NCBI GenBank assembly: GCA_029248105.1
Contig: JAQWJZ010000012.1
Span: 1 to 35,893, forward strand
From: Flavobacteriales bacterium
Lineage (GTDB): Bacteria > Bacteroidota > Bacteroidia > Flavobacteriales > UBA7312
Length of the DNA: 35,893 bases
Direction: 5' to 3'
Shown: one piece after another, positions 14,041 to 25,966 of the stretch
How the letters are laid out: each line of letters begins with the position of its first letter
Position numbering within the stretch: the stretch's first letter is position 1
Made by a program: the position numbers and the translations under genes
Notes under the pieces: generated by a model
What the model saw: only the letters and a program-made list of their open reading frames with translations
Told to the model about the DNA's origin: nothing
Databases searched by the model: none

Positions 14041-15191
14041 AATAAGTACTCTTTAATTTTTCTGTAAAGTGTGCGTTCCGAAATGCCTAATTCTTCGGCG
14101 GCATCTTTTCTTCTTCCTTGATGTCTTTTTAAAGCTTTTTCAATAAGGATTTTTTCTTGCTCATGCAGGGTTAAAAAGACATCTTCTTCAATTTCTTTTT
14201 CAGCAATTGATATTGTTGGTTTTTCAATCAGATGATTTATGACCTTTTCTTCTTCTATATCGTGTTTTTTTTCTCCCATTAGTTCCTTAGTGACTCTTTT
14301 TAAATCGTTAAGGTCGTTCTTCATGTCGAAAAGAACCTTGTAGAGTATTTCTCTTTCAGAAAAGTCGTTATCAGTTTTTTCATTTTTGAACAATACGGGT
14401 GTAGTATTTTGTTTTGGGATATAGTTTATTAAAATTTCTTTACTTATGCTTCTGTCTTGCTCAACAGCTGAAATTTGTTCAGCGACATTTTTAAGTTGTC
14501 TAATGTTTCCCGGCCAAGAGTAAGTTTGTAATAAATCTACGGCATCTTCTTCAAGTCGTATCGGAGGAATGTGATACCTATCAGCAAAATCTGCTGCAAA
14601 CTTTCTAAATAGTAAATGAATATCTTCAATTCGCTCTCTAAGGGAAGGCATTTTGACATTTATGGTGTTTAGTCTGTAAAACAAATCTTCTCTAAACTTT
14701 CCCTTTTGAATTGCTTCTTCAATGTTTACGTTAGTGGCTGCAATAACTCTGATGTCTACTTTTTTTATCTGGCTAGAGCCAACTTTCATAAACTCTCCGC
14801 TTTCTAAAACTCGCAATAGTCGAACCTGGGTACTTAAAGGGAGTTCGCCAACTTCATCCAAAAAAATAGTGCCGCCATCGGCGACTTCAAAATAGCCTTG
14901 TCTGTTGTCACTCGCTCCTGTAAAAGCTCCTTTTTCGTGACCAAATAACTCACTGTCTATTGTGCCCTCAGGAATAGCACCACAGTTTACAGCGATGTAT
15001 TTGTTGTGTTTTCTTTGACTATTGTAGTGAATGATCTTGGGCATAGCTTCTTTTCCTACGCCACTTTCCCCAGTGATTAACACGGATATGTCAGTAGGTG
15101 CAATTTGCAATGCTGTACTGATGGCTCGATCTAATTTATTTGAATTACCAATTATACCAAACCTCTGTTTAATGTCTTGGTGTTTTATCAT
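14037..15191 (-). CDS. Sigma-54-dependent transcriptional activator without sensor domain
   Basis: Bacterial enhancer-binding protein that uses ATP to remodel sigma-54 RNA polymerase. It is 384 aa. The AAA+ domain begins almost at the N-terminus: Walker A GESGVGKE (41-48), sigma-54-contacting loop GAFTGA (88-93), Walker B TIFLDE (108-113), arginine-rich second region of homology ([10 protein letters not shown]). A linker with predicted coiled coil (about 275-335) leads to a Fis-type helix-turn-helix ([16 protein letters not shown] at the C-terminus). No receiver, GAF or PAS domain is present, so control must act on its level or through the linker. It overlaps miaB and lptE by 4 bases each. 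Confidence 0.93.
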
Positions 15192-16636
15192 ACTAATTTT
15201 GTTGCTTTACCTTTCAACGTAGCTGAGGTGCATTCTTCAATATTCACCAAAACGTAATCGCCAGGTTTATAATTTTCCTTTGGGAATACTACAACGGTAT
15301 TCTGAGAATTTCGACCATAAAGCTCTTCTTTTGATTTTTTTGACACTCCTTCAACCAGTACTTTATGAGTTTTTCCTACTTGCTCTTTAGTTCTGATGAG
15401 AGAATGTTTCATTTGAAGCTCTATAATTTCTTGCAATCTTCTTTTTTTAGTTTCGGCTGAAACATCGTCATTTAACTTTCTTTGTGCCTGAGTGTTTGGT
15501 CTTTCAGAGTAGCTAAACATATATCCAAAATCATATTTGACAGCTTCCATTAAAGTTAAGGTGTCTTTATGGTCTTCCTCAGTTTCAGTACAGAACCCTG
15601 AAATTATATCCATAGAGATTCCACAATCGGGAATAATTTTTCTTATTGCTTTAATTCTGTTTAAATACCATTCTCTGGTATAGCCCCTGTTCATCAGTTC
15701 TAATATCCTACTATTTCCTGATTGAACTGGTAGGTGAATGTAATTACAGATGTTTTCGTATTTGGCAATAGTATGAAGTACATCGTCTTGCATATCTTTG
15801 GGGTGAGAGGTTGAAAAACGCACTCTCAAATTTGGGCTAACTTCTGCTACCATAGCTAGTAGCTGAGCGAAATTAGTACTCTTGCTTTGTTCTTCTTTAC
15901 TTAGCTTATTGAAGTCTTTTTTTAATCCGCCACCAGACCACAAGTAGGAGTCTACATTTTGCCCTAGCAGAGTAACTTCTTTGTAGCCATCAGCGACTAA
16001 TTGTTGACACTCTTGAACGATGCTTTCTGGGTTTCTGCTTCTTTCTCTTCCTCGAGTAAATGGAACAACGCAGAATGTACACATGTTGTCACAACCTCTA
16101 GTGATAGATACAAAAGCTGTTATTCCATTTCCGCCTAATCTAACAGGGCTGATTTCGGCGTAGGTTTCTTCTTTGGAAAGGATAACGTTAACTGCTTTTC
16201 TTCCGTCGTTAACTTCATCAATAAGATTGGGTAAATCTCTGTAAGCATCAGGGCCCACTACAATGTCGACGAGTTTTTCTTCTTCAAGAAATTTATCTTT
16301 AAGGCGTTCAGCCATACAACCCAAAACTCCAACTAACATTTTAGGGTTTTGCTTTTTCTTTATAGCATTATAAACTTTGAGTCTGTTTCTAACCGTTTGC
16401 TCTGCTTTTTCCCTAATCGAACAGGTGTTTACAAAGACAACGTCGGCATCTTCTAGGTTTGGAGTGGTTGAGAAACCCTCCTTAGTAAGGATAGAAGCCA
16501 CAATTTCACTGTCCGAAAAATTCATTTGACAGCCATAGCTTTCAATGTACATTTTCTTCTTGCTTACCTCTGATTTTTCAAGTTGTAGGGCTTCTCCTTG
16601 TCTTGCAATATCCACTATTTTCTCAGTGTCTTTCAT
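15188..16636 (-). CDS. miaB: tRNA-2-methylthio-N6-dimethylallyladenosine synthase MiaB
   Basis: Radical-SAM methylthiotransferase that adds the 2-methylthio group to i6A37 of tRNAs reading UNN codons. At 482 aa it has the three expected parts: N-terminal UPF0004 domain with the auxiliary cluster cysteines Cys36, Cys72 and Cys107; the radical SAM core with CxxxCxxC at 182, 186 and 189 (GCDNMCTFC); and a C-terminal TRAM domain (about 415-480). MiaB rather than RimO or MtaB is favoured by the [13 protein letters not shown] start and RGRERSR. It is the first gene of the operon ending in secG. Confidence 0.95.
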
Positions 16637-16756: not shown

Positions 16757-16789
16757 TTTGGTAATTTAAAAAAAGGTATTCTATATTTG
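16757..16789 (+). promoter_or_regulatory. Promoter of topA
   Basis: TTTG (16757-16760), a 21-base spacer and TATATTTG (16782-16789) fit the Bacteroidota housekeeping promoter. An in-frame ATG at 16787 lies inside the -7 element, so it cannot be the translation start; this decides for the ATG at 16823. Confidence 0.8.
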
Positions 16790-16822
16790 CACTCATTTTT
16801 AAACGAAAACAACTTATTTCTT

Positions 16823-19135
16823 ATGGCAAAAAATTTAGTTATTGTGGAGTCACCAGCAAAGGCAAAAACCATCGAAGGTTTCCTAGGCAAAGATTTTATT
16901 GTAAAGTCAAGTATTGGGCATATCAGAGATTTACCTAAAAAAGGTGGTATGGCTATTGATATCGAAAATGGTTTTACTCCTACCTATGAAATCTCCCCTG
17001 ATAAGAAAAAAGTTGTTGATGAGTTAAGTAAATTATCAAAAAAATCGGATACTGTTTGGCTTGCGACGGATGAGGACCGTGAAGGAGAAGCAATCGCTTG
17101 GCATTTACAAGAGGCTTTAAAATTAGAATCTGACAAAACAAAGCGAATCGTTTTTAATGAGATTACCAAATCAGCAATAACTAAAGCTGTTGATAATCCT
17201 AGAGAATTAGATATTAACCTCGTTAATGCTCAACAAGCGAGAAGAGTGCTTGATCGTTTGGTTGGTTTTGAGTTGTCGCCAGTGCTTTGGAAAAAAGTGA
17301 AATATGGCCTTTCTGCTGGTCGTGTTCAATCTGTTGCTGTTCGATTGATTGTAGATAGAGAAAAAGAAATAATAAACTTCGTTAGTAAATCTAGCTACAA
17401 GGTCTCCGCTTATTTCTTGAATAAAGATCAAAAAATATTTAAAGCAGATCTGCCTAAACGTTTTGACACGAAACAAGAGGCTGTTGCGTTTTTAGAGTCT
17501 TGCTCAACTTCAGATTTCACAATTACATCGCTGACTAAAAAACCCGCTAAAAAATCCCCTACAGCTCCGTTTACAACATCTACCTTGCAACAAGAAGCCT
17601 CAAGGAAATTGGGCTTTACCGTAGGGCAAACAATGAGTGTTGCTCAGAAGCTTTACGAATCGGGTAAAATCACCTATATGCGTACAGATAGCATGAATTT
17701 ATCAGACGATGCTATTAAAGCAGCTGGCGGTTATATTAAATCGACTTATGGAGATGAATTCTTCAATAGTAGAAAATTTGCTACAAAATCCAAAGGGGCG
17801 CAAGAGGCTCACGAAGCTATTCGTCCTACCAATCTAGCTAATGCTAAAGTAGATGGAGAGCGTAATCACCAAAGATTATATGAGCTCATTTGGAAACGAA
17901 CTATTGCTTCTCAAATGGCAGATGCTCAATTGGAAAGAACAACTGCTGAAATCACAGTTTCTAATGCTTCTCATAATTTTGTTGCTAAAGGGGAGATGAT
18001 AAAGTTTGAAGGTTTTTTGAAAGTTTACATGGAAGGTAATGATGATGAAGATTCTGAAGAGCAAGATGGAATGTTGCCACAGCTTGTTGAAGGAGATAGC
18101 GTATCTTCAAAAGAAATTAATGCTATTGAACGTTTCAGTAAGCCTAAACCTCGCTTTACCGAGGCTAGTTTGGTAAAACGATTAGAGGAACTTGGTATTG
18201 GACGTCCGTCTACTTATGCATCTACAATTACTACTATTCAAAATAGAGGATATGTAGAAAAGGGACAGAGTGAGGGTGTTTTAAAGCCTTACATCAGCCT
18301 TTCATTAAAAGATAATGAGGTAAAAGAAGAGCAAAAATCTGAAAAATCAGGCTCTGATAAGTCTAAAATGAAACCGACAGATATTGGTATCGTTGTTACG
18401 GAGTTTCTTGAAACAAATTTTGCTGCTGTTATGGATTACAGCTTTACTGCTGAGGTGGAAAAAGAGTTTGATTTTATTGCCAAAGGAGATAAGGTTTGGA
18501 ATGAGATGATTAGCCAGTTTTACGATGGTTTTCTTAAAACAGTAAATGAAGTTTCAGACAACTCAGAGGCCGCTAAAGGACAGCGTCTTTTGGGTACCGA
18601 CCCAAAAACGAATGAAAATGTATATGTTAAAATAGGTCGATTTGGACCTATGGCACAAATTGGAGAAGCTAGTGATGAAAAGAAGCCTAGATTTGCTTCT
18701 CTTTTAGCTTCACAAAGCATTACTACTATTACATTAGAAGAAACGTTAGAATTGTTTAAATTGCCGAGAGTTGTTGGTGAATTTGAAGGTGACGAGGTAG
18801 TTGCAGCTATTGGACGCTTTGGACCATATTTGCGTTTCAAAGGTAAGTTTGTGTCTATCAAAAAAGCAGACGGTGATGAGCCATTAACTATTGAAATAGA
18901 TAGAGCTGTAGAATTGATTTTAGCACATAGAAAGGCTGAGGCAGAAAAAATAATTAACCGATTTGAGGGTGATCCTTTAGTTCAAGTCCTTAATGGTAGA
19001 TATGGTCCTTTTATTCAGATAGGAGAGGGGGCACGTAAAAATAAAACAAATGTCAAGATTCCTAAAGATGTTGAGCCAAAGTCTTTAACTAGAGAAATGT
19101 GTTTGGATCTGGCAGAAAAAAGTAAGAAGAAGTAA
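16823..19135 (+). CDS. topA: DNA topoisomerase I
   Basis: Type IA topoisomerase that relaxes negative supercoils. It has 770 aa from the ATG at 16823 (MAKNLVIVESPAKAKT), chosen because the earlier ATG falls in the promoter and this one begins the conserved Toprim domain. Glu9 and the DxDxE acidic site (Asp83, Asp85, Glu87) bind Mg2+; the catalytic tyrosine is Tyr285 (ITYMRTDS). The C-terminus has no Cys4 zinc ribbons. Instead it carries three GR(F/Y)GP repeats (GRFGPMAQIG, GRFGPYLRFK, GRYGPFIQIG), the DNA-binding topoisomerase C-terminal repeat type. The next gene starts directly after its stop codon. Confidence 0.96.
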   Translation: MAKNLVIVESPAKAKTIEGFLGKDFIVKSSIGHIRDLPKKGGMAIDIENGFTPTYEISPDKKKVVDELSKLSKKSDTVWLATDEDREGEAIAWHLQEALKLESDKTKRIVFNEITKSAITKAVDNPRELDINLVNAQQARRVLDRLVGFELSPVLWKKVKYGLSAGRVQSVAVRLIVDREKEIINFVSKSSYKVSAYFLNKDQKIFKADLPKRFDTKQEAVAFLESCSTSDFTITSLTKKPAKKSPTAPFTTSTLQQEASRKLGFTVGQTMSVAQKLYESGKITYMRTDSMNLSDDAIKAAGGYIKSTYGDEFFNSRKFATKSKGAQEAHEAIRPTNLANAKVDGERNHQRLYELIWKRTIASQMADAQLERTTAEITVSNASHNFVAKGEMIKFEGFLKVYMEGNDDEDSEEQDGMLPQLVEGDSVSSKEINAIERFSKPKPRFTEASLVKRLEELGIGRPSTYASTITTIQNRGYVEKGQSEGVLKPYISLSLKDNEVKEEQKSEKSGSDKSKMKPTDIGIVVTEFLETNFAAVMDYSFTAEVEKEFDFIAKGDKVWNEMISQFYDGFLKTVNEVSDNSEAAKGQRLLGTDPKTNENVYVKIGRFGPMAQIGEASDEKKPRFASLLASQSITTITLEETLELFKLPRVVGEFEGDEVVAAIGRFGPYLRFKGKFVSIKKADGDEPLTIEIDRAVELILAHRKAEAEKIINRFEGDPLVQVLNGRYGPFIQIGEGARKNKTNVKIPKDVEPKSLTREMCLDLAEKSKKK

Positions 19136-20296
19136 ATGGAATTTGAGTTAAGCTTTAAACCTATAGTTCATCATAACGAAGACTACCAGTCTAGTCAGTT
19201 AGGACAGAATGTGATGGCTTACACTCAAGGTGATTTTCCAAATCTTTCAGAAGCAGATTTGGTAATGTTCACTGTTCCAGAATTTCGAGGAACTCCTGTT
19301 GCAAATAATGATGAATCACTCGATAATATTCGTAAAGAGTTATATCAACTTTTTGAAGGTCAAGAAAGACTTAGAATAGCCGATTTGGGACAATTGCTTT
19401 TGGGCGAAAAAATTAGCGATACCTATCAATTACTTACTGACGTTTTGATTGAGTGCGAACAACGAAATTTGTTTGCTCTTGTTATTGGTGGCGGTCAAGA
19501 TTTGACCATATCACAATATCGATCTTGTGTTAAATTAGGTAAATTGTCTAATATGGTAGGTTTTGATTCTCGTTTTGATTTTGGAGTAGATGAACATAGT
19601 CAACCTTCTGATGCCTTTTTGTCTGATATTTTAAAAACCCAGCCAAATGTTTTGTTTAATTATACTAACATAGGCTATCAAACCTATCTAAATACTCAAG
19701 ATTCAATCAAATTAATTGAAAAACTTTATTTCGATGCCTATCGATTAGGTGAAATAAAACAAAATATTGAAGAAGTAGAGCCATCACTTAGAAATGCAGA
19801 TTTTGTAACATTTGATATGAATTGTGTTCGACTTTCTGATAATCCTTCAAATATAGATGGTTCTCCTAATGGTTTTTATGCGGAAGATGCTTGTCAGATA
19901 ATGCGTTATGCAGGTATAAGTGGTCGTCTAAAAACTTTAGGTATTTATAATTTTTACAATAAAAGTGACGAAAACTTACAATCTGAAAAGTTAGTGGCAC
20001 AAATGATTTGGTGCTTTTTTGAAGGATTTTTTCATAAAATGAAGCGTTTCAAGCCAAACGACGATGATATGGTTAAATATCATGTTTCTATGAGAGAAGG
20101 TGAGTATAATGCTTGTTTTTACAAAAATAAAAAATTAGAAAAATGGTGGATGGAAGTCCCAATAATTAATTCTTCCCCAACCTTGCCTTTAGAAAATTAT
20201 TTTATTCCTTGTTCTTACAATGACTATCAGATAGCTGTAAAGGGAGATGTGCCCGAAAGATGGTGGAAAGCTTTTCAAAAAATGAATCAACATTAA
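19136..20296 (+). CDS. Ureohydrolase (arginase/formimidoylglutamase)-fold protein with altered metal site
   Basis: A 386-aa cytosolic protein of the arginase-agmatinase-formimidoylglutamase fold. The three metal-binding blocks are recognisable by position but changed: GGGQD (118-122) where active enzymes have GG-x-HD, FDSRFDFG (143-150) where they have DAHxD, and FDMNCVRLSDNP (226-237) where they have an SxDxDxxDP-type motif. Two histidines and one aspartate of the Mn2+ site are thus missing, so hydrolase activity is doubtful. Its start abuts the topA stop (TAAATG) and porP-gldKLMN follow. No hut (histidine) genes are near. I see no signal peptide. Annotation as formimidoylglutamase would be by similarity only. 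Confidence 0.8.
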   Translation: MEFELSFKPIVHHNEDYQSSQLGQNVMAYTQGDFPNLSEADLVMFTVPEFRGTPVANNDESLDNIRKELYQLFEGQERLRIADLGQLLLGEKISDTYQLLTDVLIECEQRNLFALVIGGGQDLTISQYRSCVKLGKLSNMVGFDSRFDFGVDEHSQPSDAFLSDILKTQPNVLFNYTNIGYQTYLNTQDSIKLIEKLYFDAYRLGEIKQNIEEVEPSLRNADFVTFDMNCVRLSDNPSNIDGSPNGFYAEDACQIMRYAGISGRLKTLGIYNFYNKSDENLQSEKLVAQMIWCFFEGFFHKMKRFKPNDDDMVKYHVSMREGEYNACFYKNKKLEKWWMEVPIINSSPTLPLENYFIPCSYNDYQIAVKGDVPERWWKAFQKMNQH

Positions 20297-20341: not shown

Positions 20342-20387
20342 TTTTAGCCGAATATTAATTGTGATATACGTTTTGACGTTACCTTTT

Positions 20388-21293
20388 ATGAAAAAATATT
20401 TTTTGCTTTTCTTGTTGTTATCTTTCGCTTTTCATTCCAAAGCACAGCAAGATCCACAGTTTAGTCAATATATTTTTAATAACCTGTCTTTCAATCCCGG
20501 GTCGGCCGGTAGTGAAGAGGCTATTTGTGCTACTGCTTTGCATAGATCTCAGTGGGTAGGTTTTGAAGATGCTCCTGTATCAACAAATTTTGCAGTTCAA
20601 AGTCCATTATCTTTATTGCATGGAGGTATTGGTCTTAATATTTTGACAGACAAAATTGGTCAAAATGAATTTTTGTCCTTAAACCTTTCTTACGCATACC
20701 AGCTCGATATCTCTAATGGTAAGCTTGGTATAGGTCTTTCGGTCGGAGTAATTCAAGATAAAGTGAACGGTGCTAATATCATTACTCAAAATCCTGATCC
20801 ATCAATACCTACAACAGATGAAAACGGTTCTGGATTGGATTTAGGTATGGGGTTATTTTATAATTCGGAAAAATTATATGTTGGTCTATCTTCAAAACAC
20901 ATGAATGAGCCAACAATTTCTACATCATTAGATATCATTGATGTTAAAAGACATTACTACCTTACTGCTGGATATGTACACGAATTGAACGAAAAGATGG
21001 CATTAAAGCCCTCGCTATTAGTAAAAACTGAGGGGGTTACAACTACTGTTGATTTAACTTCAATCCTTGAATACAATAAAAAGTTGTGGGGTGGAGTTAC
21101 ATATAGACCGAGTTCTCGTGCGGTATTATTGCTAGGTATGCATATCAACGAAGATCTTAAGTTTGGATTTTCATATGATGTTCCTACAACAAACGTGTCC
21201 ACATCAGGAACTTTTGAATTTATGCTTGGGTATTGTTTCAAAATCGATTATAACAAAGTAGTTAAAGGGTTTAAAAATCCTCGATTCCTATAA
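20388..21293 (+). CDS. porP: PorP/SprF-family T9SS membrane protein
   Basis: Outer-membrane beta-barrel of the PorP/SprF family of the type IX secretion system. It is 301 aa from the ATG at 20388; the earlier ATG at 20361 would add nine residues ahead of the signal peptide. Signal peptide MKKYFLLFLLLSFAFHSKA is followed by the family signature QQDPQFSQYIFNNLSFNPG and then HRSQWVGFEDAPVS. The rest is alternating amphipathic strands ending in a hydrophobic-aromatic strand. It lies directly before gldK, the porPKLMN order known from Porphyromonas gingivalis. Many Bacteroidota have several PorP paralogues, so whether this is the core PorP or a substrate-specific SprF is inferred only from position. 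Confidence 0.88.
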   Translation: MKKYFLLFLLLSFAFHSKAQQDPQFSQYIFNNLSFNPGSAGSEEAICATALHRSQWVGFEDAPVSTNFAVQSPLSLLHGGIGLNILTDKIGQNEFLSLNLSYAYQLDISNGKLGIGLSVGVIQDKVNGANIITQNPDPSIPTTDENGSGLDLGMGLFYNSEKLYVGLSSKHMNEPTISTSLDIIDVKRHYYLTAGYVHELNEKMALKPSLLVKTEGVTTTVDLTSILEYNKKLWGGVTYRPSSRAVLLLGMHINEDLKFGFSYDVPTTNVSTSGTFEFMLGYCFKIDYNKVVKGFKNPRFL

Positions 21294-21351: not shown

Positions 21352-21406
21352 GTGGCTTAGATAAAAAATAAACCCTCTTATATTGAGGTATTAAAATATG
21401 AGTATT

Positions 21407-22705
21407 ATGAAAAATTTATTTATCCTCGGATTTGTTGCAATAGTATTTGCAAGTTGTTCTACCACAGGAAATGGAGAGTTAATAGGTGTTCAAAATAGAC
21501 CTATTTGGAACCCTACCGATCCTTATGGAATGGTTTTTGTGCCTCAAGGAAGTTATAATATGGGGCCTGGAGATCAGGATGTGCCTTATGCACATGTAAC
21601 TCAGCACAAAACAGTTTCTGTAGCTGCTTTTTATATTGATGAAACGGAAATCACTAATAACGAATACAGACAATTTGTTTCTTGGGTCCGTGACTCTATA
21701 GCGCGTGTTATTCTAGGTGAAAACGGAGTAGAAGGTTACGAACTTATCGAAGAGGATGAATATGGTAATTTTATTGACCCGCCAAATATTGATTGGAGTA
21801 GACAAATACGTTGGGATGATGCAGAGGTAAGAGAGGTGCTAGAAGATGAGATGTACCTTCCTGAGCATGAGCGTTTTTATTCAAGGCGTCAATTCGATAC
21901 TAGAAAATACAATTACCGTTATGAAGATGTTGATATAGTCAGAGCATCATCAAGAACGAATAAAGAAAAAGGCAAGGAAGACAGATCTATCTTTATTGAA
22001 AAGCCAGAATTAAATATTTTTCCTGATACTTTAGTTTGGACATCAGACTACACGTATTCTTACAATGATCCGCTCTCAAGGAATTATTTTCATCACCCAG
22101 CTTTTGATGATTACCCTGTTGTTGGTGTAAGTTGGAAACAAGCAGTCGCTTTTTCTAAATGGAGAACACACATATTAGATAATTACTTAAACGATAGAGA
22201 AGAACCTCTTCACGATCAATTCCGTCTTCCTTCAGAATCAGAATGGGAATATGCGGCTAGGGGTGGTTATGATTTAGCTCCATATCCTTGGGGTGGACCA
22301 TACACTACTAATGATGCTGGTTGTTTTTTAGCTAACTTCAAGCCTAGAAGAGGTAACTATACTGCTGACGGTGGTTTAAGAACAGTGAAGGTTGCATCAT
22401 ACAACCCTAACAATTTTGGTCTGTATGATATGGCTGGAAATGTTGCCGAATGGACTAGCAATGCTTATGATGAATCTGCATTTAATTTTGCTCATGACAT
22501 GAACTTTGACTTCAACTATGATGCTGAAGATTCTGATCCAGAAATTCTAAAGCGTAAAGTTATTAGAGGCGGTTCATGGAAAGATATCTCACACTTTATC
22601 CAGGTAGGGACAAGAGATTATGAATTTCAAGATACAGCAAAATCATACATTGGATTTAGAAACGTGATATCCTTTATTGGTAGAGATAAAGCAGATTTTA
22701 GATAA
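21407..22705 (+). CDS. gldK: T9SS outer-membrane ring lipoprotein GldK
   Basis: Lipoprotein that with GldN (PorK-PorN in P. gingivalis) forms the large periplasmic ring under the outer membrane in type IX secretion and gliding. It is 432 aa from the ATG at 21407; the ATG at 21398 would add only three residues. Signal and lipobox end at Cys17 (VFASC). The rest is a formylglycine-generating-enzyme (FGE/SUMF)-like fold: MVFVPQGSYNMGPGD early, ETEITNNEYRQFV, RLPSESEWEYAARGG, NNFGLYDMAGNVAEW and VIRGGSWKD. In this family the fold serves structure, not sulfatase activation. gldL follows after 35 bases. Confidence 0.95.
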   Translation: MKNLFILGFVAIVFASCSTTGNGELIGVQNRPIWNPTDPYGMVFVPQGSYNMGPGDQDVPYAHVTQHKTVSVAAFYIDETEITNNEYRQFVSWVRDSIARVILGENGVEGYELIEEDEYGNFIDPPNIDWSRQIRWDDAEVREVLEDEMYLPEHERFYSRRQFDTRKYNYRYEDVDIVRASSRTNKEKGKEDRSIFIEKPELNIFPDTLVWTSDYTYSYNDPLSRNYFHHPAFDDYPVVGVSWKQAVAFSKWRTHILDNYLNDREEPLHDQFRLPSESEWEYAARGGYDLAPYPWGGPYTTNDAGCFLANFKPRRGNYTADGGLRTVKVASYNPNNFGLYDMAGNVAEWTSNAYDESAFNFAHDMNFDFNYDAEDSDPEILKRKVIRGGSWKDISHFIQVGTRDYEFQDTAKSYIGFRNVISFIGRDKADFR

Positions 22706-22740: not shown

Positions 22741-23364
22741 ATGGCATTATTAAACCCCAACTCAAAGAAGTTTAAAAATGGAATGGCAAAGCTTTATGGT
22801 TTTGGAGCTGCTATCGTTATACTAGGTGCACTATTTAAATTAATGGACTGGCCAGGTGCTGGAGCTATGCTTACTATCGGACTTTCAACAGAAGCAATTA
22901 TCTTTTTCTTCTCTGCTTTTGAGAAGCCGCATGAAGATCCAGATTGGAGTTTGGTTTACCCAGAATTAGCATATATGAAAGATCCAGATGATGGAACTTC
23001 TTCATCCTCGAAAAAAACTCCAGTTCAGGAATTAGATAACATGTTAGACAAAGCTAATGTTGATCAAGCCTTAATAACTCGATTAGGGGATAATTTAAGA
23101 TCCTTTAATGAAACTGTTGAGGGCGTTAATAAGTCTATGGATGCTGTATCTGCTACGGGTGATTATAGTGATCAAATGCGTGAAGCTGCTAGAAAGTTAG
23201 CTGAAATGAATACGTATTATGATTTACAGCTTAAAACAATGCAAAACATGGGTAATTCTGTCAGTGATTCCGAGAAGTTTCAAGTTGAAATATCCAAACT
23301 AGGCACTAATCTAGAAGCGCTTAACAAAATGTATGCTAACATGCTTAGCGCAATGAATAAATAA
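22741..23364 (+). CDS. gldL: T9SS motor protein GldL
   Basis: Inner-membrane stator of the proton-driven motor that powers T9SS and gliding. It is 207 aa. Two membrane helices lie near the N-terminus (about 18-34 and 42-60), joined by the short turn LMDWPGAG. Glu51, in the second helix (GLSTEAIIFFF), is the likely match to the protonatable Glu49 of the Flavobacterium johnsoniae protein. The cytoplasmic part (about 62-207) is helical and contains QELDNMLDKANVDQ, the usual GldL segment. It is followed by gldM, whose single helix fills the GldL5 ring. Confidence 0.95.
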   Translation: MALLNPNSKKFKNGMAKLYGFGAAIVILGALFKLMDWPGAGAMLTIGLSTEAIIFFFSAFEKPHEDPDWSLVYPELAYMKDPDDGTSSSSKKTPVQELDNMLDKANVDQALITRLGDNLRSFNETVEGVNKSMDAVSATGDYSDQMREAARKLAEMNTYYDLQLKTMQNMGNSVSDSEKFQVEISKLGTNLEALNKMYANMLSAMNK

Positions 23365-23404: not shown

Positions 23405-25099
23405 ATGGCAGGAAATAATTTATCGCCCAGACAAAAAATGATTGGTATGATGTATTTAGTTCTAACAGCATTGTTAGCACTTAATGTATCTAAACAAGTC
23501 CTAGATGCATTTTCTAAAATTAATAGTGGAATTGTTAAAACAACCAAAAACTTCAGTTTAAAAAATGATGACGTTTACAATGAGTTTGTTTTAGCAGCTG
23601 AGACAAATCCAACTAAAGCAGGACCATGGAAAGACAAGGCTTTTACGGTTAAGTCTAAATCTGATTCACTTGTCGACATGATTCAAAGTCTAAAATTTAG
23701 CTTGGTTATGTTGGCTGAAAATAAAGTAACCCTTGAGGGTGAAAACCTTAATGAAAATGGCGCCCCACAAGCTCTTAAAGACATAACTTTCGATGATTTA
23801 ACAGACACGCAAAAAAATAAAAACATTATAAATATCAAGAAGAAAAAAGACAGACTTTCTTCTGGAAATTTTCTTGTCAAAGAACCTAACGGTCAAATAC
23901 TTGTTGACAGATTAGAATCTTTCAAAAATTATGCATTAACTCTTATCAAAGATGATTTTCTTACCAAATCAATTAAGGAAACAATGAGATATGAAGTTGA
24001 AAAAGTTAATGTTGGTGCTAAAAAATCAGATCAAACTTGGCTTGAAAGAAATTTCTCTGATATGCCATTAGTTGCTGCAGTAACTTTGCTTTCTAAAGTT
24101 CAAACAGATATTAGAAATACCGAATCAGATGTAATAAATTATTTGAAGCAAGAAATTGATGCAGGCTCTTTAAAGTTTACCTCTGCTGATGCTATACAAA
24201 TTGCAACTTCAAATTATGTGTTCCTTGGTGATTCATTCAAAGCTGACGTATTCCTTGCAGCAAAAGATACCACTCAGAATCCTTTAATCTATGTTGGTGA
24301 TTATGAAATTGATGAAGACGGAAAATATAAAATGATCGGTAGTTATGATTCAATACCAGTAGTTTCTGGAAAAGGAAAGTATGCCGTGAAAGCTAGTTCT
24401 GAAGGTTATAAAAAATGGGGAGGTCTTATTTCAATGAAGACTGATGCAGGGACTAAATTATATCCCTTTGATGGTGAGTATCAAGTGGCAAGAGCCAGTT
24501 TAGTTGTTTCACCTACCAAGATGAATGTATTCTACATTCTTGCAAGTCACCCACTTAAAGATGGAGCCTTAGGTAACCCTATTGATGTTTCTGTACCCGG
24601 TGTTCCAAAGGATAAATTAAGTGTAAGCTGTGATAACGGTGTAGTAAAAAAAGTCAAAGGTGGAGGCTGGGAAGTTTACCCTAAAACAACGGGAAAGGCT
24701 AAAATCAGTGTTTCAGCACAAATTGATGGTAAGAGAAGAAATATGGGTTCTTTAGAATATAGAGTAATGAGAACGCCTAAGCCTGAGCCTAAGTTTTTAG
24801 GTTCTAAAAACAAAAAAGTTAAAAAGAGTCAATTGCTTTCAAGTAATGCCAAGTTGTATGCTGAGCTTAGCAACTTCGTATTTGATATAAAGTACCGAAT
24901 TACAGGATTTTCTGTTGATGTTACTCAACGTGGTGAATTAGTTACAAAGTTCGCTAAGGGAAACAAAGTGACTCCTGAAATGAAAACATTATTTGAATCA
25001 CTGCAAGTTGGTTCTGTATTGTATTTTACTAATATTACCTGCAAAGGACCAGATGGCGCACCAAAATCATTGCCAGCGGTTAAATTAACGGTAAATTAA
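23405..25099 (+). CDS. gldM: T9SS motor/transmission protein GldM
   Basis: Passes inner-membrane motor motion to the outer-membrane ring. The N-terminus carries the hallmark SPRQKMIGMMYLVLTALLALN with one membrane helix (about 12-30), followed by VSKQVLDAFSKIN. The periplasmic part has a helical first domain (about 40-255) and Ig-like domains to the C-terminus (YPFDGEYQVARASLVVSPTKMNVFY; NPIDVSVPGVP; VMRTPKPEPKF linker; last domain from about 475). At 564 aa it is longer than F. johnsoniae GldM (about 513). It is followed by gldN after 12 bases. Confidence 0.95.
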   Translation: MAGNNLSPRQKMIGMMYLVLTALLALNVSKQVLDAFSKINSGIVKTTKNFSLKNDDVYNEFVLAAETNPTKAGPWKDKAFTVKSKSDSLVDMIQSLKFSLVMLAENKVTLEGENLNENGAPQALKDITFDDLTDTQKNKNIINIKKKKDRLSSGNFLVKEPNGQILVDRLESFKNYALTLIKDDFLTKSIKETMRYEVEKVNVGAKKSDQTWLERNFSDMPLVAAVTLLSKVQTDIRNTESDVINYLKQEIDAGSLKFTSADAIQIATSNYVFLGDSFKADVFLAAKDTTQNPLIYVGDYEIDEDGKYKMIGSYDSIPVVSGKGKYAVKASSEGYKKWGGLISMKTDAGTKLYPFDGEYQVARASLVVSPTKMNVFYILASHPLKDGALGNPIDVSVPGVPKDKLSVSCDNGVVKKVKGGGWEVYPKTTGKAKISVSAQIDGKRRNMGSLEYRVMRTPKPEPKFLGSKNKKVKKSQLLSSNAKLYAELSNFVFDIKYRITGFSVDVTQRGELVTKFAKGNKVTPEMKTLFESLQVGSVLYFTNITCKGPDGAPKSLPAVKLTVN

Positions 25100-25111
25100 A
25101 ACCTAAATATT

Positions 25112-25966
25112 ATGAAGAATTTAGTATTAGTTGTATCCTTAGTTTGTATCTCACATTTTTCATTTGCTCAAGATATTCTTGACGGCGCATATGAGAAAGA
25201 CATTAGAGATGGTGGAAAGGAAAGGATGATTCAAGATTATCAATACGTTAGAGAAGCTGACGTAATGTGGTCTACCAAGATTGAAAGAGTGATTGATTTA
25301 AGAGAGAAAATGAATCAAGTATTCTACTACCCTCTATTACCAATAAACGATAGACAAAACCTTATAGATGTTTTGATGCAAGCTATTGATGAAGGAACTA
25401 TCACGGCATATGGTAATGCAACAAATGATGACGAATTTCAATCTCCAATGTCTCGTTCTGAAGTTGATTTAATAGGTATAATGGAAGGAGAAAAAATAAC
25501 TGTTGAAGAAAAGTTTGATCCCGACAATCAAGAATATTATTTAGATACTACTTACAACATCTTTCAAAGACATGATGTGAAAAAGTACAGAATTAAAGAA
25601 GAATGGATTTTTGATAAGCAACGTTCTGTTATGGAAGTAAGAATTATAGGAATCTGCCCTGTAATTGATAGAAGAAATGAAGATGGTGTTTATACTGGTG
25701 AAACCTCTTTATTTTGGGTGTACTTTCCAGAGGCAAGGAAAATTCTGGCTAAATCTGAAGTCTTTAACCATAGGAAGAATGATGCAGCACGTTTAACTTA
25801 CGATGATATTTTTCACAAGAGATTTTTTAGCAGTAGAATAGTCAAAGAATCAAATAAGTATGATAGAAAAGTTTCTGAATATAAAGAAGGAATTGACGCT
25901 CTGTTAGAAGCAGAAAAAATCAAAGAAGAGATTTTCAACCTGGAACATGATTTATGGGAGTATTAA
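25112..25966 (+). CDS. gldN: T9SS ring protein GldN
   Basis: Periplasmic partner of GldK in the T9SS ring; the GldM tip is thought to push on it. It is 284 aa with a signal peptide (MKNLVLVVSLVCISHFSFA, cleavage before QDIL). Typical GldN segments: EADVMWSTKIERVIDLREKMNQ, YYPLLPINDRQNLIDVLMQAI, YRIKEEWIFDKQRSVMEVRI, IGICPV and LFWVYFPEARKILAKSEVFN. Only one copy is present here (no gldO paralogue). A strong terminator follows. Confidence 0.95.
   Translation: MKNLVLVVSLVCISHFSFAQDILDGAYEKDIRDGGKERMIQDYQYVREADVMWSTKIERVIDLREKMNQVFYYPLLPINDRQNLIDVLMQAIDEGTITAYGNATNDDEFQSPMSRSEVDLIGIMEGEKITVEEKFDPDNQEYYLDTTYNIFQRHDVKKYRIKEEWIFDKQRSVMEVRIIGICPVIDRRNEDGVYTGETSLFWVYFPEARKILAKSEVFNHRKNDAARLTYDDIFHKRFFSSRIVKESNKYDRKVSEYKEGIDALLEAEKIKEEIFNLEHDLWEY

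Follow-up and report, generated by a model that had tools for sequence, protein, structure and literature searches.

Background

Histone deacetylases have an arginase-type fold in which one of the two metal sites, the Mn(B)-like one, has been kept. The arginase-like protein of T. brucei, which Hai et al. 2015 are said to have described, reportedly lacks the binuclear Mn cluster, carries replacements of its metal ligands and has an elusive function. Formimidoylglutamase (HutG), as represented by the T. cruzi structures 2a0m, 4mxr and 4myn and the B. subtilis structure 3m1r, tolerates a residue other than His at the place of H101 (rat arginase numbering). Pseudo-arginases are known from a few cases, according to one paper (PMC11271267), which presents MetCb, a subunit of metformin hydrolase, as a metal-free pseudoenzyme and protein binder that pairs with MetCa, an active member of the arginase family.

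Here we describe ARGL (the name used here), which is encoded in a window of 35,893 nucleotides, i.e., the whole stretch of DNA that was analyzed, from a Flavobacteriales bacterium (contig JAQWJZ010000012.1), and which resembles each of these systems in part. With HutG it shares the common fold, the Asp residues of the Mn(A) site and the tolerance of a non-His residue at the H101 place; it differs from HutG in the loss of both ligands that serve Mn(B) only, in its C-terminal extension and in a hutG score below the cut-off. The T. brucei protein is eukaryotic, whereas ARGL is a class-wide bacterial family that keeps three Asp residues, and histone deacetylases keep the Mn(B)-like site, whereas ARGL keeps Mn(A)-like residues. 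Like MetCb, as presented in PMC11271267, ARGL appears to be an arginase-family member without the binuclear center; unlike for MetCb, no second arginase-family protein with which it could pair was found in its genome at E 0.01, and for the source genome the idea that ARGL is the inactive half of a pair with an active ureohydrolase was rejected on this ground.

In the open-licence literature we found no description of the ARGL family, and nothing on ARGL in work that joins arginase with topA/gldK, gliding or the type IX secretion system (T9SS). A paper that does combine arginase with type IX secretion concerns, in its passages on the subject, an arginase on mobile transposons that is unrelated to ARGL, and the passages of a T9SS paper (PMC12635249) that contain the context terms are silent on ARGL. 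Among the listed papers on arginase-like proteins and binuclear manganese clusters none deals with Bacteroidota.

The ARGL gene and its neighborhood

The genes of the window that are considered here are the following.

15188..16636, minus strand: MiaB-like radical-SAM/TRAM protein, in an often-conserved block upstream of topA (neighbor comparison across loci)
16787..19135, plus strand: topA, DNA topoisomerase I (ORF list and profile matches); its stop codon abuts the ARGL start
19136..20296, plus strand: ARGL, putative arginase-fold pseudoenzyme of 386 aa (ORF translation, profile and structure matches)
20361..21293, plus strand: PorP/SprF-family T9SS membrane protein (ORF list and profile matches), with a GTG start as listed
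21398..22705, plus strand: gldK/porK (profile match)
22741..23364, plus strand: gldL/porL (profile match)
23405..25099, plus strand: gldM/porM (profile match)
25112..25966, plus strand: gldN/porN (profile match)

The last base of topA (19135) and the first base of ARGL (19136) are adjacent, so that the two frames abut with zero gap, and the order downstream of ARGL is PorP/SprF, GldK, GldL, GldM, GldN. The initial annotation had placed an arginase-fold gene between topA and the T9SS genes, and the ORF list, the Pfam match and the structural model all agree with it. The PorP/SprF frame has an in-frame ATG at 20388 that is followed by a signal-peptide-like stretch, and this ATG is the likelier start as compared to the listed GTG at 20361.

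ARGL scores 42 bits against Pfam PF00491 (Arginase), above the gathering cut-off of 22, and 40.1 bits against the NCBIfam hutG equivalog (TIGR01227), for which the cut-off is 229.15. Judged by these sequence scores, it is a relative of formimidoylglutamase that falls far under the curated hutG limit. The source genome (1.74 Mb, 99.23% complete) has a single copy of ARGL, which is its sole PF00491 match, and no other arginase-family protein was found there at E 0.01. By eye, the N terminus of ARGL is devoid of a signal-peptide-like stretch, and the protein is presumably cytosolic.

Predicted fold

An AlphaFold2 model of ARGL, built from 53 sequences, has a mean pLDDT of 88.9 and a pTM of 0.91. 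Its top VIA match is the T. cruzi formiminoglutamase 2a0m (Z 34.5, 2.2 A over 277 residues, spanning model residues 17-302), followed closely by another T. cruzi formiminoglutamase entry, 4myn (Z 34.4), and in the Foldseek ranking by E-value the two-subunit metformin hydrolases are on top. The predicted model thus has the arginase alpha/beta fold by both comparisons, and the structure prediction that had been proposed in the initial annotation yields the fold of arginase and formimidoylglutamase. Searched with phmmer, the single ARGL protein found no match in the PDB at E 1 or better, and a profile (A2) found 23 at 0.01.

Metal-ligand positions

The ligand positions were compared in an alignment of 158 rows, i.e., the window protein and 157 others. 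Eight arginase-type proteins (L071-L078) and five very divergent members of the group f6 (L042-L046) were set aside before the ligands were counted; f2 and f6 are anonymous codes for groups of genomes. The 145 counted members are the window, L002-L041, L047-L070 and L079-L158, some of these rows being partial, and L079 and L080 are probably the same contigs as L003 and L004. Conservation was ranked over 386 columns with near-duplicates down-weighted (effective n 64.1). The six places, together with the rat arginase residues to which we take them to correspond, are listed below.

19496..19498, plus strand: Q121 (Q in 125, H in 15 and N in 5 of 145; rank 80/386), presumably the place of the Mn(A) ligand His H101
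19565..19567, plus strand: D144 (D in 141/145; rank 35/386), presumably the place of the bridging Asp D124
19571..19573, plus strand: R146 (17 residue types, including R in 38, K in 35 and H in 11 of 145; rank 358/386), presumably the place of the Mn(B) ligand His H126
19577..19579, plus strand: D148 (D in 138/145; rank 42/386), presumably the place of the Mn(A) ligand Asp D128
19814..19816, plus strand: D227 (D in 142/145; rank 24/386), presumably the place of the bridging Asp D232
19820..19822, plus strand: N229 (12 residue types, including S in 55, G in 28, N in 26, T in 16 and D in 3 of 145; rank 245/386), presumably the place of the Mn(B) ligand Asp D234

The complete set of ligands (H, D, H, D, D, D) occurs in none of the 145 members. 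The window reads Q, D, R, D, D, N, in which three of the six ligands (D144, D148 and D227) are kept, and the translation shows them within the blocks GGGQD (Q121/D122), DSRFD (D144/R146/D148) and DMN (D227/N229), as these had been read in 19136-20296 in the initial annotation. The three substituted residues whose conservation it had proposed to check, Gln121, Arg146 and Asn229, fare unequally in the alignment, the first being shared by most of the family and the other two falling at variable positions. We take the division of labor in rat arginase to hold here, under which the positions that ARGL has kept bind Mn(A), and each of the two that it has lost contributes to Mn(B) alone. The columns of the three Mn(A) Asp residues rank with the best conserved in the family, and the Mn(B)-only positions are variable. 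The loss of ligands in ARGL is more than chance, because no member has a complete set and because the pattern of substitutions matches the Mn(A)/Mn(B) division. Six of the eight arginases have all six ligands, the other two having N at 121 (L077) and N at 148 (L075).

Q121 aligns with the residue that the N114H variant of T. cruzi formiminoglutamase (4myn) alters; 4mxr, the entry without this change, bears the title 'with Mn2+2', and the B. subtilis enzyme 3m1r also has Asn there. Since formimidoylglutamases with Asn at this place exist, one of them so titled, Q121 alone is not diagnostic. Taken together, the ligands suggest that ARGL should not perform ordinary binuclear ureohydrolysis, and the reading as a pseudoenzyme or as a protein with a changed chemistry, as first proposed for the window protein, is supported, for a family whose examined members all lack the full set.

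C-terminal extension and family-specific residues

Three further features of the protein lie in or beyond the C-terminal part of the fold.

19892..19894, plus strand: C253, family-specific cysteine (C in 142/145; no C at this place in the 8 arginases)
20045..20293, plus strand: C-terminal extension, about residues 304-386, past the arginase core (the 50 VIA rows shown stop at model residues 297-304)
20210..20212, plus strand: C359, cysteine in the PCSY motif of the extension (C in 144/145, with one gap; nothing aligns here in the 8 arginases)

At 39 positions of ARGL the same residue is found in at least 95% of the 145 members, and four residues, R219, W292, F328 and W337, the last two of which lie in the extension, are invariant in all 145. 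W292, F328 and W337 are absent from the eight arginases, in which the places of F328 and W337 have no aligned residue at all, and at the R219 place one of the eight (L073) has R. The extension and the two cysteines, which the family conserves, go unmentioned in the initial annotation, as does the Mn(A)/Mn(B) asymmetry. When it was modeled alone, the extension gave a pLDDT of 75.8 and a pTM of 0.68. No PDB entry matched this model at the threshold of E 0.001, the lowest E being 0.77, and Pfam searches with 15 ARGL members found nothing consistent in the extension, the best being SH3b_P2 in 2/15 at E 0.0012. Four PARP2/ARTD2 entries, two of them titled WGR domain, occur in the weak part of the match list, at noise level (E at least 1.3, probability at most 0.06). 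A profile of the extension (A3) was run on 28 chosen genomes; 19 gave a match, once each and inside the frame of ARGL, and the nine others are two f2 genomes that have ARGL (G104 and G340) and seven that lack it.

Distribution and selection

Of 325 genomes of the class, 303 match the family profile at E 1e-20, some of these matches being weak or fragmentary, e.g., G529 (3.3e-21) and G600 (4.1e-40); the named loci suggest that the class is Bacteroidia. Within the source family ARGL is present in 9/10 genomes, and the genome that lacks it is 66% complete. A draw from the phylum gave matches in 157/395 genomes at E 1e-15, and among the matches listed, those from outside the class reach no further than profile position 321, which is what ordinary arginases would do. 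In the contig search at least 585 stretches encode relatives of ARGL, and the best 80, which were kept, include Flavobacterium, Tenacibaculum, Mucilaginibacter, Solitalea and many Bacteroidales assemblies. The change, for which conservation in flavobacteria had been surmised, therefore reaches well past that group, and decay of this copy alone, the case that had been named as fatal to such a reading, is excluded by the class-wide matches and the uniformly incomplete ligand sets. By its scores ARGL is kin to arginase and hutG, yet it is probably not an ordinary representative of arginase or of hutG.

A quick tree was built from 63 rows, 55 ARGL members and the 8 arginases, with SH-aLRT values only and without bootstrap. 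ARGL forms one side of a branch that separates it from the eight arginases with an SH-aLRT of 99; 24 of the 60 inner branches of this tree are open, and the branches of L042 and L073 are long. When the window is compared with L002, L003, L079 and L080 (Nei-Gojobori), dN is 0.104-0.158 and dS 1.05-1.34, a ratio of 0.09-0.12. ARGL is under purifying selection.

Association with type IX secretion genes

Counts of neighbors include the window and ignore relatedness, and for topA the denominator consists of loci with at least 600 bases upstream. By this count topA lies directly upstream of ARGL on the same strand in 93/146 loci. Where there is enough downstream sequence, GldK is found within 2.6 kb in 36/97 loci and is absent nearby in 61/97; these 97 loci divide into 34 with topA and GldK (the window included), 18 with topA only, 2 with GldK only and 43 with neither. 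Many Bacteroidales loci have the topA-ARGL pair without T9SS genes, and in the Mucilaginibacter and Solitalea loci neither topA nor T9SS genes adjoin ARGL.

Across the 325 genomes, 293 have both ARGL and GldL, 10 have ARGL only, 11 have GldL only and 11 have neither, three entries being inferred from another list (G258 and G716 without ARGL, G710 without GldL); a Fisher test on this table gives p 2e-9, a value that is inflated by kinship and incomplete assemblies. GldL is also over the cut-off in 40 of 43 genomes whose ARGL loci were mostly chosen for having no adjoining T9SS genes (these genomes derive from 44 of the best 80 loci, with L138 left out). SprA was found in 11 of 17 chosen genomes. 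Five genomes, with five different group codes, have the T9SS (GldL and SprA) without ARGL (G199, G356, G403, G640 and G462), and two have ARGL without GldL and SprA (G368, 99% complete, and G498, 95%); loss of ARGL and loss of the T9SS thus do not go together. ARGL, GldL and SprA are all present in G270 and all absent from G239, G247 and G360. SprA is present without a GldL match over the cut-off in G579, G710, G433, G420 and G436, in which GldL probably falls in an assembly gap or is too divergent. A component of the T9SS would be present wherever the system is and lost with it, and ARGL does not follow this pattern.

Two other observations concern these loci. G011, which consists of one contig, has ARGL and GldL and no SprA match, and G368, which is without both GldL and SprA, belongs to the same genus. 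There are also apparent duplications, with two GldM-GldN pairs in L100 and two GldN in L087.

Interpretation

We consider it very improbable that ARGL is an active formimidoylglutamase, or another binuclear ureohydrolase with unusual ligands, even though formiminoglutamase is its closest fold by VIA and the source genome encodes a urocanase, hutU (667 aa, 421 bits, over the cut-off; G000:C20:9882-11549, L159:6805-8805, with 85 residues before the match). The low hutG score and the loss and variability of both Mn(B)-only ligands speak against such activity, as do the surroundings of hutU, which lies on a contig other than that of ARGL amid recG and the pyruvate dehydrogenase E1-alpha/E2 genes, with no hut gene among the 7 neighbors scanned. 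A neighborhood of hut genes is usual for such an enzyme, if not strictly defining, and ARGL adjoins topA and T9SS genes instead; moreover, G139, G038 and G175 have a ligand-complete arginase (L071-L073) besides ARGL. A place for ARGL in histidine degradation was rejected in view of the same hutU surroundings, with some residual chance left to it by the presence of hutU itself. That the gene is decaying and has been kept only by recent inheritance is barely credible: the N-terminal half is degenerate or shortened in f6 (L042-L046), but for the lineage of the window the open frame, a dN/dS of about 0.1, the class-wide presence and the residues invariant in 145/145 refute decay. It is also unlikely that ARGL, with its gene beside gldKLMN, assists the machinery for type IX secretion or gliding. 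The 34 loci with topA upstream and GldK downstream, the joint presence with GldL in 293 genomes and the GldL matches in 40 of the 43 genomes favor this; against it stand the independent losses in seven genomes, the 61 loci without an adjoining GldK and a p value that ignores kinship and the missing pieces of draft genomes. The task linked to its T9SS neighbors that had been suggested in the initial annotation, for which position and shared presence are the evidence, is thus not supported.

It seems to us probable, with some reserve, that ARGL is an ancient pseudoenzyme that is not a ureohydrolase and has a binding or regulatory task, possibly with one metal kept. Its ancestor would have been formimidoylglutamase-like, if we infer the direction of change correctly; the Mn(B) half of the binuclear center may have been lost at or near the base of the ARGL clade; and selection maintains the fold, the C-terminal extension, the two cysteines and, in almost every member, the Mn(A) aspartates. 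Because these features are under selection, ARGL would most likely act as a binder, of a partner protein or of a small ligand in a remodeled pocket, and serve as a scaffold or regulator. D144, D148 and D227 are conserved in the manner of active-site residues and therefore allow for metal binding and some chemistry. The best-supported of the bold alternatives, which we hold to be possible and no better than tentative, is that the Mn(A) site (Q/H/N121, D144, D148 and D227) binds one metal for catalysis or sensing, the Mn(B) site being gone. The ranks of the Mn(A) aspartates (35, 42 and 24, as compared to 358 and 245 of 386 at the Mn(B)-only positions) are consistent with such a mononuclear site, as are the formimidoylglutamases that have Asn where ARGL has Q121, including the entry titled 'with Mn2+2'. 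It is weakened by the absence of all three aspartates from f2 (3/3 loci), by the R or K at position 146 in 73/145 members, which could occupy the site in place of a metal, and by the chance that the kept aspartates are structural. The fuller claim, that ARGL is a class-wide mononuclear metalloprotein with the Mn(A) half-site kept under strong selection, a C-terminal domain for which no relative was detected and two conserved cysteines, and as such a new enzyme or a metal or redox sensor, is rather doubtful. If the mononuclear reading were true, ARGL would mirror the histone deacetylases, which kept the other half. A class-wide family that has kept one metal half-site and released the other provides a natural test of what the arginase fold can do without ureohydrolysis, and in metabolic reconstructions caution is advisable against annotating ARGL genes as formimidoylglutamase.

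Divergent groups f2 and f6

Under the pseudoenzyme reading that we prefer, two groups of genomes deserve separate mention. All three f2 loci that were read (L039-L041) have also lost D144, D148 and D227 and have D at 229, and they retain both C253 and C359; the branch that leads to them is long (2.22 in the quick tree). With the three aspartates lost and both cysteines kept, what is conserved in f2 is something other than the metal site. The f6 members (L042-L046) have kept much of the C-terminal half, and their N-terminal half is degenerate, shortened or missing. These exceptions are evidence for a conserved role that does not depend on the metal site, at any rate in f2 and f6. In L043, L044 and L045 the next genes, on the opposite strand, are a Mur-ligase gene (scanned in L044, assigned by cluster in L043 and L045) and a GldK-like gene of ~500 aa.
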